IMG/VR virus record: IMGVR_UViG_3300048592_000328
Span: 1 to 39,189 of that record
Source: a virus
Strand: one strand, 5' to 3'
Length of the DNA stretch: 39,189 nt
The notes beneath the pieces were generated by a model, which was not told the origin of the DNA, did no database searches, and was given only the letters and a program-made list of their open reading frames with translations. The translations under genes were made by a program, and so were the position numbers. This document shows positions 4,139 through 39,189 of this stretch, piece by piece (position 1 is the stretch's first letter; each line of letters begins with the position of its first letter).

Positions 4139-4537
4139 ATGGACTGGATACCTGCACAAATCATCGGTTTTTGCAATCGATTATCTAAGGAAGGTTATCG
4201 ATGCAAAAAATGCGGGAAGCAAATCATTAACGGAATAGGGCCGGACAATTTTCCTGTTGTTGCGACTATTCTTAATTCTCTTCCAAGCTCTCATGTACTC
4301 AAGTGGGCAGCGAACTATCATGACTATCTTTATCATAAAGGCGGTGACGAAGACGCAAGATCATACGCCGATGTCATGTTTTACAAGCTCGGCGAATGGA
4401 TTATCAAAAAGAAAGTTGTGTGGTATAAACGCTGGTGCTATAGTGCGATGAATAAGCGCAATTATCTTTTTGTAAGGATGTTTGGTAAAAAGTACTTTGG
4501 TGATGATGGGTGTAGTGTTGAAAAAAAAGCTGGTTAA
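4139..4537 (+). CDS. Conserved phage protein with HDxxYxxGG motif (phospholipase A2-like pattern)
   Basis: 132 residues with AAGAAAGGG upstream of the ATG. An N-terminal CKKCGK pair is followed by GPDNFPVV and then NYHDYLYHKGGDEDARSYAD at about residues 60-79. The HDxxY...GG...AD arrangement occurs in a family of small phage proteins I recognise by pattern, and it resembles the His-Asp core of phospholipase A2-like proteins. The C-terminal part is rich in Trp, Tyr and Lys (about residues 80-125). It lies in a cluster with the next two small genes. Catalytic activity is not shown by the sequence; an envelope-directed role at lysis or entry is possible. Confidence 0.65.
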   Translation: MDWIPAQIIGFCNRLSKEGYRCKKCGKQIINGIGPDNFPVVATILNSLPSSHVLKWAANYHDYLYHKGGDEDARSYADVMFYKLGEWIIKKKVVWYKRWCYSAMNKRNYLFVRMFGKKYFGDDGCSVEKKAG

Positions 4538-4718: not shown

Positions 4719-4731
4719 AAGGAAGAATATA

Positions 4732-4971
4732 ATGAATAGATTTGATTATGTGAAGTATGATGAACATGCACAAATTATTCAGAACGGTTTTAAAGTAATG
4801 TTCATGGAATTAGAAAAAAAAGTAGATACTCTCTTGACTTCATCAAGGGCGAAGGCATTAGCTTTGACGAGTCTTGAAGAAACCTATATGTGGATAGGTA
4901 AAGCAATTCGAGACGACCAACTTGCTAGAAACGGAATGGTTGAATTGCAGGAACAAAGAAATAATTCGTAA
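4732..4971 (+). CDS. Acb2/Tad1 hairpin-domain protein, candidate cyclic-nucleotide sponge (anti-CBASS)
   Basis: 79 residues; ATG preceded by GAAAGGAAG. The core SSRAKALALTSLEETYMW (residues about 36-53) matches the signature I know from the Acb2 family, SRExSLALTKLEExxxWxxxxI, and FDYxxYDE at residues 4-11 sits where that family has FTYHxP. The distance from the first Phe to the LEE motif equals that in family members as I remember them (47 residues). Known Acb2 proteins from Pseudomonas phages form hexamers that bind cyclic di- and trinucleotides and block CBASS immunity; related Tad1 proteins bind the Thoeris signal. Binding specificity here cannot be read from the sequence. The gene is the last of a small rightward cluster next to the fibre genes. 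Confidence 0.75.
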   Translation: MNRFDYVKYDEHAQIIQNGFKVMFMELEKKVDTLLTSSRAKALALTSLEETYMWIGKAIRDDQLARNGMVELQEQRNNS

Positions 4972-4975
4972 ATAT

Positions 4976-5872
4976 TTAATTCAAACCAGCAAACCAGCAC
5001 CGTGGGCGAGTAGTACAAGAATTCCTCATAAAGTCATCTTGCGTCTTAGGTATGATTCTATCGTTCCAGCTTTTAAGGCATGCTGTACCAGCTTTGTAAG
5101 TATCAAGGCGGCACTGGGCGGCAGGATGACTATGCTGGGTTTCTCTTACCACTGTCCTGTCTGGTGTTTCATATGACGGTTCATTTTCATTTCCAAGCGA
5201 AGCAAGGAGCTTTCCTAGAGATAATCCACCAGCAAGTGACCTCTCGCATACTGTCTTGTCGTTTGCAGTCATAAACCTTCTTTCACCGCATGCTGTACCG
5301 CTAATGTTTTCAGCTTCATTTGGTGTTATGAAACCACAAGGCCCGGTTTGATCTGTATCATCATTGTCATCTTGAGTTATGGCGAATACTTTTCTAGCGC
5401 AAGATGCTGTTGAATAAAAGTCGCTGTTTCCTTCATTCGAGGCCCAACTTGAATCGGGATACTCAGGGACTCCTGCGACATGGTGTCCTAGTTCATGGCA
5501 AACTACAAGTGCAAACCCTTCCGGGGTTACTTCTTCATGTCTCGCTAATCCGCCGTAAAAAGATATTATCCAATTCTTGCCAGTTTGTTGAGCATAGGCG
5601 TTAACTGTGTTTGATTTCCAGTTTCTTTCTACCTTTAGATTAGCTCCAAAACTTGCGATGATTGGACGGTAGATTCTCTCGACTCGATCAAGCACAGCAT
5701 GAAATTCTTGTTCTGTTATCCCGCCATATCCTCTCGGATTCGGATCAATCAGATGATAATCGTTTTCAGGCAAAAAAGACTTGTAAGGTCTTTTAAGCTC
5801 TATTCCTTCGGAGTCAGATTGTGAACACCCGAACGCCAATAAACCAATGCAAAAAAATATAGCTTTTAGCAT
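4976..5872 (-). CDS. Secreted/lipoprotein zinc metallopeptidase (HELGH)
   Basis: 298 residues; ATG at 5872 preceded on its strand by GGAGAG. Residues 1-16 form a lipoprotein-type signal ending LAFGC, so Cys16 is probably lipidated. HELGHH at 126-131 is the zinc-binding HExxH site, and the EGNSDFYS stretch at 147-154 carries the likely third ligand Glu147. The middle and C-terminal parts are rich in cysteine and contain CERSL, HPAAQCRLDTY (249-259) and a final RCW, a layout I associate with secreted metallopeptidases of predatory bacteria (recollection only). It is alone on this strand, facing the Acb2-like gene, with a divergent inverted repeat upstream. It could act in envelope remodelling of the host, in lysis, or as a lysogenic-conversion gene. 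Confidence 0.75.
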   Translation of the reverse strand: MLKAIFFCIGLLAFGCSQSDSEGIELKRPYKSFLPENDYHLIDPNPRGYGGITEQEFHAVLDRVERIYRPIIASFGANLKVERNWKSNTVNAYAQQTGKNWIISFYGGLARHEEVTPEGFALVVCHELGHHVAGVPEYPDSSWASNEGNSDFYSTASCARKVFAITQDDNDDTDQTGPCGFITPNEAENISGTACGERRFMTANDKTVCERSLAGGLSLGKLLASLGNENEPSYETPDRTVVRETQHSHPAAQCRLDTYKAGTACLKSWNDRIIPKTQDDFMRNSCTTRPRCWFAGLN

Positions 5873-13604: not shown

Positions 13605-13626
13605 TTACATGTAAATAGTGTTACAC
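13605..13626. promoter_or_regulatory. Palindromic operator TTACATGTAA and promoter before the first paralog
   Basis: TTACATGTAA at 13605-13614 is a perfect palindrome in the 78-bp gap between divergent genes. It is followed at 13618 by GTGTTACAC. A candidate promoter for the rightward gene is TTAAAC (about 13599-13604), 17 bases, then TACACT (about 13622-13627), which would put the palindrome between the two boxes. The AATAGTGTTA string is shared with the recT promoter. Confidence 0.55.
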
Positions 13627-13656
13627 TTATCACACACACAACGAAAGGTAAATATT

Positions 13657-13962
13657 ATGGCGGGAAGTATGGGCGATTTTGCCGAACATATTACTAAGCA
13701 ATTGATGTCTGATTTAAACGTGATGGCACGCGCACAGAATCACGATTTTATCGCTCTGACATCACAAAACAGGAGCTTTTCGAGTCGCTGTAGTCAGCAA
13801 ATGGAAAAGCAAGTTGTGGAATTCGATTATCAAGAGTCAATGGCTTTAAGGCCGTTCGATCCAATGGCTTCAAATTTCATGCTGCAGAGTGAACGGCAAA
13901 AAAATAATTCAATTTTGGTGAACGAAGAATTTCTTCTAAAGATTCTATCCCAAAGAAAATGA
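13657..13962 (+). CDS. Unrecognised protein, first of two tandem paralogs, 101 aa
   Basis: Starts at ATG 13657, with GAAAGGT upstream. The product shares about 60 percent of residues with the next gene by eye: HDFIALTSQNRS, QQMEKQVVEFDYQESM, RPFDPMASNFMLQSER and VNEEFLLKIL in the same order. I recognise no family. The protein is polar, without membrane segments, and probably compact and helical at both ends. It has its own palindromic operator site. Candidate roles include host take-over or anti-defence; nothing visible decides this. Confidence 0.65.
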   Translation: MAGSMGDFAEHITKQLMSDLNVMARAQNHDFIALTSQNRSFSSRCSQQMEKQVVEFDYQESMALRPFDPMASNFMLQSERQKNNSILVNEEFLLKILSQRK

Positions 13963-14020: not shown

Positions 14021-14320
14021 ATGAGCTTGGAGCAACAAATTTCTGACCAAATGCTTTCGGACAATTCGATTCTGTTTCGCGTTCAACAACATGACTTCGT
14101 AGCACTGACTAGCCAAAGTCGTTCAGTATCGGCACGCTTTGGCCAGCAAATGGAAAAAAAGGCTGTTGAGTTTGATTACGAGGAAAGCATGGGATATCGT
14201 CCATTCGATCCCGTTTCCGGTGCTTTCATGCTGCAATCGGAAAGAGTCAAAAACAACGGCATCACCGTTAATGAGTCGTTTTTGCTCTCTCTTCTGCAGC
14301 AAAACGGAAACACGAAATAA
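14021..14320 (+). CDS. Unrecognised protein, second tandem paralog, 99 aa
   Basis: ATG preceded by AAAGGGAG. It has the same blocks as the gene before (HDFVALTSQSRS, QQMEKKAVEFDYEESM, RPFDPVSGAFMLQSER, VNESFLLSLL), so the pair arose by duplication. The duplicates have diverged at the N-terminus and in the GYRPFDP neighbourhood while the central block is conserved, which suggests that central block binds the partner or substrate. It ends one base before the stop of the leftward gene. Confidence 0.65.
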   Translation: MSLEQQISDQMLSDNSILFRVQQHDFVALTSQSRSVSARFGQQMEKKAVEFDYEESMGYRPFDPVSGAFMLQSERVKNNGITVNESFLLSLLQQNGNTK

Positions 14321-15379: not shown

Positions 15380-15475
15380 TGGTACCGGTGGCCCTCTCAG
15401 ACACAATATAATAGTTTGCTTGACTCATATATTCACCGGCAAGCAATTATTAATTGAACAAGAGGGGATTTGCAA
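15380..15475 (+). promoter_or_regulatory. Promoter region with TATAAT and a 13-bp palindrome before the MazG-like gene
   Basis: TATAAT at 15407-15412 is a perfect -10 box, but the -35 region (about 15384-15389) is poor. CAATTATTAATTG at 15444-15456 is a perfect palindrome around a central T. GCTTG and CAAGC (15418-15422 and 15440-15444) also form inverted copies. GAGGGG at 15462-15467 is the ribosome site for the GTG start at 15476. Confidence 0.5.
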
Positions 15476-15748
15476 GTGAGTTTATTGAGGCATGACACAA
15501 TCATGAAACTAGCTAGCGGCGATCAATGGCGTCAATTTAATCAACTACAAGAAGAATGCGGAGAATTAATCGCAGCTGTTAACCAGTATCGCAGGAACAA
15601 AAGCATTGAACACTTGTATGATGAGATAGCTGACGTCGCAATAATGATCGCACAAATGAGAGTTATTTTGGATAACTCAAAAATCAACGCGAAGATTGAA
15701 GAAAAATTAAGCAGGGCAGCTGGGCGCCTGTCAGAAGGTAAGCTATGA
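15476..15748 (+). CDS. MazG-like nucleotide pyrophosphohydrolase
   Basis: 90 residues from GTG 15476, chosen because GAGGGG ends 8 bases upstream; the TTG at 15470 is too close. The signature pair is clear: FNQLQEECGELIAAV (ExxE of the first helix) and LYDEIADVAIMIAQM (ExxD of the second), the metal-binding helices of the all-alpha NTP pyrophosphatase superfamily. Phage MazG-like enzymes hydrolyse nucleoside triphosphates or alarmone-type nucleotides during infection. It is the first gene of the overlapping chain that runs to the glycoside-hydrolase-like gene. Confidence 0.8.
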   Translation: MSLLRHDTIMKLASGDQWRQFNQLQEECGELIAAVNQYRRNKSIEHLYDEIADVAIMIAQMRVILDNSKINAKIEEKLSRAAGRLSEGKL

Positions 15749-37533: not shown

Positions 37534-39189
37534 ATGGTCGGCAGAATACGCGAAATAGTTTTTGAGGATGGAATTGACGTTGACGGTACGGTTACCGAGG
37601 CAGCTTCAAAGGATTATGTTGATGGTTTATTTGATCCAATCACAGCAAATGAAAAAGGGATATATTTAGATAATACAAGCGGTCTTCCTGCACTTTCGCC
37701 ATGGCGTGCTGGTGTACTCGCATGGGATACCGAACATGATTGCCTTGCTGTTTCGACTATCTATGAAGATTCTTGGTTGCAGGTAGGAAGCGAGGAGCAA
37801 GAAACAGTAAGGAATAAAACTGGCTCAGATCTTTTAAATGGTCAAGTTGTTTATATTGATGGAGCTACAGGACATATTCCAAACGTGAAACTTGCAACAT
37901 GTACTGATGAAACAATAGCAAAAAGAACTATAGGGGTTGTAACATCAGAGTCAAATATTGCTAATAATGATACTGGTCCTATTTGTTTATCGGGACATGT
38001 TCATGGCATCAATACAAATTCCTTTACTGTTGGCGATGTTCTTTGGTTAGATACCGTAGCCGGTGGTTTTACAGCCACAAGGCCGAGCTATCAATATGAA
38101 CATATCATGATTGGTATTGTGCTAGAAAAATCACCTACAGATGGTGTTATTTATGTTGAGGTTAGGGATTTAACCGACCAAATTGCAAAAATGGGTTTTC
38201 ATACGGTAGACCCCCATGGCTTCACTGAATACGATAACACTTACATGACAAGAAGCTGGGTAGGTAATACCTTCACATTAACCCAAGTAGGAACAAGCAC
38301 GCCATATTATCATAAAGGCAAATTAAAGTATTTAACTGGAAACAAATCGATAACTGTCACACCAACAGCGGGCGCGCATTTCATCGGTTTAAATTGCACA
38401 ACAGAAGTTCTTGAAGATTTAGGCGGGACTATCCCGGCGGCTTCAGTTGTTTCAACTCATGTGATTTGTGAGTTTTGTTATGCAAATGGGACTGATGTCA
38501 TTTATTACGCAAATGAGAGACACTCAACGAAGTTTCCTAAAAAGATATGGTTTTTTAATCACCTTTATTTATCTACACAATACAAAAGCGGTTTAACAAC
38601 AAGCATAACCTCAATTGACGGCAATGGTAGCAGTTTGGATCATGCAAGGTTTTCTGTTACGGCTGGTGTGATACAAGATGAAGATATTGAAATCAGCGTC
38701 GCATCTATAGCAAGCGCAGCGACAAAAAACATTTGGTATTATAACGGCACTGTTTGGGTTAGTGTTTCAGAAACAAACGGCACTGGTGTTATTGTTTCAG
38801 GCACTGGCAGAGCTTCATACAATAATTATACAACTGGTCTTGTTGAAGCTACAAATAATTATCATGTCCTTACTCATCTATTTGCTGCTAATAACGGCAC
38901 TGTAATTGCAATCATTGGTAACGCTGAGTATCAATTATTGGCTCAGGCTAGGGTGGCAGCTAGCGAAGAGATATCTACTCTTTTAACAACTGGTTTGCCG
39001 TTCCCAGAGTTTAGAGCAATCGCAACATTTATAAATCAAACGAGGGATACTTATTCAAACGCAGTTAAATCAAGAATTGTTTCAGTTGATACAGGTGTTG
39101 AATATATAGATTGGAGAACAACAAAGCTTAATCCTGTAGCTGGAACATCAGCATCAAATCATAACAGTCTTGCAGGTATTCAGGGCGGC
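37534..39189 (+). CDS. Large tail-fibre protein, N-terminal part (continues at base 1)
   Basis: ATG with AAAGGAAA upstream, open to the end of the window. The first 60 residues (MVGRIREIVFEDGIDVDGTV) attach to the tail tip. Residues about 95-210 carry a structural module I know from many phage virion proteins: EETVRNKTGSDLLNGQVVYIDGATG, then RTIGVVTSESN, FTVGDVLWLD and IMIGIVLEKSP. The region near 38970 has the FINQTRDTYSN pattern. Joined to 1-2694 the protein is about 1375 residues, with residue 510 Val or Ala depending on the copy. Confidence 0.85.
   Translation, partial: MVGRIREIVFEDGIDVDGTVTEAASKDYVDGLFDPITANEKGIYLDNTSGLPALSPWRAGVLAWDTEHDCLAVSTIYEDSWLQVGSEEQETVRNKTGSDLLNGQVVYIDGATGHIPNVKLATCTDETIAKRTIGVVTSESNIANNDTGPICLSGHVHGINTNSFTVGDVLWLDTVAGGFTATRPSYQYEHIMIGIVLEKSPTDGVIYVEVRDLTDQIAKMGFHTVDPHGFTEYDNTYMTRSWVGNTFTLTQVGTSTPYYHKGKLKYLTGNKSITVTPTAGAHFIGLNCTTEVLEDLGGTIPAASVVSTHVICEFCYANGTDVIYYANERHSTKFPKKIWFFNHLYLSTQYKSGLTTSITSIDGNGSSLDHARFSVTAGVIQDEDIEISVASIASAATKNIWYYNGTVWVSVSETNGTGVIVSGTGRASYNNYTTGLVEATNNYHVLTHLFAANNGTVIAIIGNAEYQLLAQARVAASEEISTLLTTGLPFPEFRAIATFINQTRDTYSNAVKSRIVSVDTGVEYIDWRTTKLNPVAGTSASNHNSLAGIQGG
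38968..39189. repeat. Right copy of 222-bp end repeat
   Basis: Identical to bases 1-222 except C39062 in place of T95. Joining the copies gives a circle of about 38,967 bp with one uninterrupted fibre gene. The single difference changes a valine codon (GTA) to an alanine codon (GCA), residue 510 of the joined protein, so it is either a population variant or a sequencing error. Confidence 0.9.

Follow-up and report, generated by a model that had tools for sequence, protein, structure and literature searches.

The window, by which we mean the whole stretch of viral DNA analysed here (39,189 nucleotides), begins and ends with a direct terminal repeat of 222 bases (1-222 and 38968-39189, with one mismatch, T95/C39062), which makes it probable that the window represents an entire phage genome, with a length of about 38,967 bases. 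GC content is 41%. Its terminase has distant matches only, the best being at 27-29% to Pelagibacter phages. The short gene considered here, a candidate nucleotide sponge gene, comes after the tail-fibre genes and some small open reading frames and is followed by a gene for a metallopeptidase-like lipoprotein on the opposite strand. The short gene is a real open reading frame of 79 codons with an ATG start, separated by 13 bases from the stop of the preceding frame.

4732-4971, plus strand: candidate Acb2-type hairpin sponge gene, 79 amino acids, stop included in the coordinates; recognised by PF24729, phrog_1454, relatives in IMG/VR and a predicted helical hairpin
4720-4725, plus strand: Shine-Dalgarno sequence AGGAAG, read from the sequence, 6 bases 5' of the sponge-gene ATG

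Several other genes in the window were noted. The lipoprotein gene (4976-5872, minus strand) adjoins the candidate sponge gene, and its product carries an HELGHH motif, has weak similarity to M48/M6 peptidases and is kept at 44% identity in L001, the contig with the closest relative of the sponge protein. It may resemble lipoproteins of Bdellovibrionota; the search against phages returned nothing, elsewhere there was only a distant Streptomyces plasmid match, and a scan by short peptide patterns across 84,980 genomes of bacteria and archaea confirmed no relative. A 132-residue frame at 4139-4537 (plus) with the motif GPDNFP...NYHDYLYH has a homologue (36%) in L001 directly upstream of the sponge gene there. 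A collagen-repeat lipoprotein (PF01391; 8591-9205, minus) is another possible host-surface gene, and two tandem paralogous frames lie at 13618-13962 and 14021-14320 (plus). A preliminary description of this DNA had seen no other anti-defence gene. It is true that the window has no Tad2-like gene; the wider statement is doubtful, as a MazG-like frame of 92 residues at 15470-15748 (plus), with an EExxE...ExxD motif, matches PF03819 just below threshold (E = 7.8e-4), and PMC10419184 reports counter-defence for Atd1, a MazG-like phage protein.

The 79-residue protein matches PF24729 (Acb2_Tad1_hairpin) at E = 1e-7 and 32.5 bits, above the curated Pfam cut-off of 27 bits, which is also passed by 31 of 35 records, relatives included. 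It is likewise matched by phrog_1454 (E = 6.6e-9); the same family recognises T4 Vs.4, which is itself in PF24729. Relatives with identities of up to 64% are encoded on more than 50 phage contigs in IMG/VR (37 by single-sequence scan and 64 by profile scan, the two sets overlapping). Comparison with the closest of them, in L001 (64%), gave a dN/dS of about 0.27, which indicates that the gene is under purifying selection. An alignment of 33 sequences yielded the consensus RFDYVKYDExAxxxQxxFK...GRAKxLALTKLEExYMWIGKAIRDDQIxR...LQEER. When the single sequence was searched against the PDB essentially only Tad1 hairpins appeared, at E of about 0.08 and below significance; the profile of the 33 sequences found Tad1 hairpins at 4.3e-5 to 0.002 and Acb2 homolog 43 (9PTQ) at 0.002, and after the profile was widened with actinophage members, 9PTQ became the best match (E = 1.4e-8), gapless end to end over profile positions 5-64, with Tad1 hairpins at about 3e-5. 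HMM-HMM comparison (hhalign) with 12 canonical Acb2 proteins gave 86% probability and E = 5e-6 for a local match confined to helix 2, and comparison with five actinophage members, one of them annotated as a cyclic nucleotide sequestering protein, gave 99.3% and E = 2e-20 over residues 2-62.

AlphaFold2 modelled the protein as a hairpin of two helices (11-34 and 38-67; pLDDT 85.6) with termini of low confidence and without a beta strand. A Foldseek search of this model against BFVD placed proteins named as Acb2/Tad1 hairpins in the first seven and in most of the top 11 positions; those 11 matches had probabilities near 1 and E-values of 0.015 to 0.34, individually below significance. Against the PDB the first-ranked chain was T4 Vs.4 with cGAMP, not significant at E = 1.3. 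Single structural matches fall short of significance because hairpins are common; the best viral matches of the predicted hairpin are nevertheless Acb2/Tad1 proteins.

Curated HMM, profile and fold searches thus support membership of the Acb2/Tad1 hairpin family, and the preliminary description was right in its assignment. The motifs on which it relied are present with the spacing it gave, with FDYVKYDE spanning residues 4-11 and SSRAKALALTSLEETYMW spanning residues 37-54, and the PF24729 and phrog_1454 matches, the IMG/VR relatives and the dN/dS make them more than chance. From F to R there are 35 residues here; GD43A and Lebo14, actinophage members with FTYH/FNYH, have 35-36. Its choice of FTYHxP as the family pattern suits these actinophage members, whose consensus it is; canonical Acb2 (T4 Vs.4, PaP2 p26) has GY[RK] at that site. 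Extension of the family to a host other than Pseudomonas, offered there as a novelty, was not new: members are already annotated in Mycobacterium, Microbacterium and Curtobacterium phages, and BFVD also lists members from Arthrobacter, Lactococcus and Streptomyces phages. The protein truly belongs, as an Acb2-type member, to a known and widely distributed family. Genes of this sort have been recorded from many phages already, so this one is unremarkable apart from a single conserved position that is unusual.

Within the family the Acb2 type, made up of the hairpin only, is a better fit than Tad1. At 79 residues the protein lies in the range of about 70-115 amino acids used here to define Acb2 and has no beta domain; an in-frame stop 9 codons upstream limits the open frame to 88 codons and so leaves no room for one. 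The Tad1 arrangement, an N-terminal beta domain with a C-terminal hairpin, was not found, and the domain search gave no Tad1-like match for the gene upstream, which encodes a cysteine-rich, zinc-ribbon-like product. Tad1 proper was therefore ruled out on the 88-codon frame and the strandless model. The loops that line the gcADPR pocket of Tad1 presumably sit in that N-terminal beta domain.

Positions that may contact the ligand were sought by comparison with Acb2 of T4 and PaP2. PMC12657218 reports that the Y8A change in T4 Acb2 disrupts cyclic-dinucleotide binding and that Phe82 stacks on the bound ligand, and PMC12657230 that T68M lowers binding. The putative equivalents are as follows, with conservation among the 33 aligned sequences.

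4747-4749, plus strand: Tyr6 codon, likely equivalent of T4 Acb2 Tyr8 (cyclic-dinucleotide binding); Y in 30/33
4792-4794, plus strand: Lys21 codon, equivalent of Lys23 (T4) and Lys26 (PaP2); K in 31/33
4846-4848, plus strand: Arg39 codon, start of helix 2, paired by hhalign with PaP2 Acb2 Arg67; invariant, 33/33
4867-4869, plus strand: Thr46 codon, equivalent of T4 Acb2 Thr68 in the hhalign register; T in 31/33
4909-4911, plus strand: Arg60 codon, at the base-stacking Phe82 of T4 Acb2 in the hhalign register; invariant, 33/33

Of the T4 contact set Y8, T68 and F82, then, T46 matches T68, Y6 or Y9 would stand for Y8, and R60 replaces F82. Y6 is probably the match of T4 Y8: it lies 15 residues from Lys21, the Tyr-to-Lys spacing of all 12 canonical Acb2 proteins checked, and Lys21 is in register with the Acb2 lysine in both the HMM and the MAFFT alignments. 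The global HMM alignment pairs Y6 with Y8 at low probability and MAFFT shifts the tyrosine towards Y9, which is also highly conserved and is a possible alternative. Lys26 and Arg67 of PaP2 Acb2 are, we assume, contact residues of its dinucleotide and trinucleotide pockets. The invariant R60 and the conserved C-terminal tail set the RFDYVKYDE group apart from canonical Acb2. A different ligand was proposed in the preliminary description from divergence of the first loop; to our mind the main ground to suspect one is the invariant R60 at the site of T4 F82.

A conserved gene neighbourhood was considered and rejected, as almost no neighbouring family is common to the window and 33 related loci. 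Because neighbours differ among relatives, the gene behaves as expected of an accessory gene. Two relatives carry a Tad2-like gene (PF11195) overlapping the sponge gene: in L019 the Tad2-like gene (1788-2018) precedes the sponge gene (2005-2244), and in L015 the sponge gene (1666-1905) precedes the Tad2-like gene (about 1898-2128). These opposite gene orders suggest that the pairing arose independently, twice. A Tad2 partner as a general rule was rejected, with 2/35 and 0/25 related records having one. A family profile scan of the 84,980 bacterial and archaeal genomes, which relied on short peptide patterns, confirmed no relative, and although such absence is not proof, it points to carriers that are phages not common as prophages.

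Taken together, we consider it likely that the 79-residue product works on its own as an Acb2-type sponge for the cyclic oligonucleotides of CBASS. We favour this reading because PF24729, phrog_1454, the profile match to 9PTQ, the HMM-HMM match to canonical Acb2 and the predicted hairpin agree, because Y6, K21, R39 and T46 are conserved at positions matching Acb2, T4 Y8 and T68 among them, because the neighbours vary from relative to relative, and because a Tad2-like gene overlaps the sponge gene in two relatives. Counting against it are the lack of significance of the structural matches taken singly, the restriction of the canonical Acb2 match to helix 2, the ambiguous register of Y6 and Y9, and the loss of F82 to R60. 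By analogy with Acb2, the protein would most likely be made during infection, and its two antiparallel helices would probably assemble into an Acb2-like hexamer that could bind cyclic di- and/or trinucleotides from a host CBASS cyclase. Rings held in this way, uncut, would keep the CBASS effector off, and the infected cell may then survive long enough to produce phage.

Other readings draw on the same data. A Tad1-like sponge would chiefly bind the signal of Thoeris (gcADPR or a related molecule) and would block Thoeris and not CBASS. The single-sequence PDB search and the good profile scores of Tad1 speak for it, and the conserved C-terminal tail could close a pocket as a tail does in Tad1 according to the review PMC12043709, which also describes a gcADPR pocket using conserved loops; however, an Acb2 homolog heads the profile matches, and with the beta domain absent, the frame short and a zinc-ribbon-like gene upstream, we think this unlikely. 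It is also improbable that the protein, while keeping the sponge fold, has switched to a different cyclic signal, such as a type III CRISPR cyclic oligoadenylate or a Panoptes product, and that R60 and the LQEER tail set its specificity. R60 is indeed invariant where T4 Acb2 has its base-stacking F82, and canonical Acb2 lacks the conserved tail IRDDQIxRNGxAxLQEER, but PaP2 Acb2, a proven sponge, has Ala for this Phe, so that the position varies without a change of class.

A protein whose hairpin serves some other role in the phage (lysis, regulation or morphogenesis), its domain common by descent or convergence, would be consistent with how generic small helical hairpins are and with the position of the gene where the tail-fibre region ends. 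Relatives conserve the ligand-contact positions but not the gene order, though, and in two of them the gene is paired with a Tad2-like one, which makes this reading very improbable. We put forward tentatively, and with considerable doubt, that the RFDYVKYDE/GKAIRDDQ group forms a sponge subfamily of its own, known to date from phages alone, in which an invariant Arg in place of the base-stacking T4 Acb2 Phe together with a conserved, pocket-closing C-terminal tail confers a ring-nucleotide specificity unlike that of known Acb2 and Tad1.

As an Acb2-type sponge the gene opens no new kind of system, R60 and the tail being its one point of note. What it brings is a distinct, well-populated environmental branch of the Acb2 family, in which Y6, R39, T46 and R60 are the residues to test. 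That two relatives have a Tad2-like gene in the same operon lends support to the view that phages combine sponges to counter several nucleotide-signalling defences.

Among known systems, Tad1 (PDB 7UAV/8KBB families) shares the C-terminal hairpin with its SRENA.ALT.vEEalMW motif and differs in the extra N-terminal beta domain that helps to form the gcADPR pocket. Canonical Acb2 (T4 Vs.4, PDB 7UQ2; Pseudomonas phage PaP2 p26, PDB 8H2J) is likewise a small, hairpin-only phage protein, with a helix-2 motif of the R...L..T.L...MW..RA[VI] type in common and an N-terminal Tyr and Lys at the same 15-residue separation. The present protein differs from it in its short inter-helix loop, in RF[DE]YVKYDE where Acb2 has IKGYR, in Arg60 against Phe82 (T4) or Ala (PaP2), and in the conserved LQEER tail of its family, with low similarity beyond helix 2. 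The actinophage proteins annotated as cyclic nucleotide sequestering, a function known from annotation only (Curtobacterium phage JoyLin gp61, Mycobacterium phage Lebo14 gp5 and those of Microbacterium phages), are closely similar by HMM-HMM comparison, although they have FTYH/FNYH or no such N-terminal motif, read 'AIF' or 'AIA' in place of 'AIR' and are without the LQEER tail. Acb2 homolog 43 (PDB 9PTQ, 76 residues) reads MFFATKAAAS where our family has MWIGKAIRDD, but it is of similar length, consists of the hairpin only and is co-linear with the present protein over 60 gapless residues.
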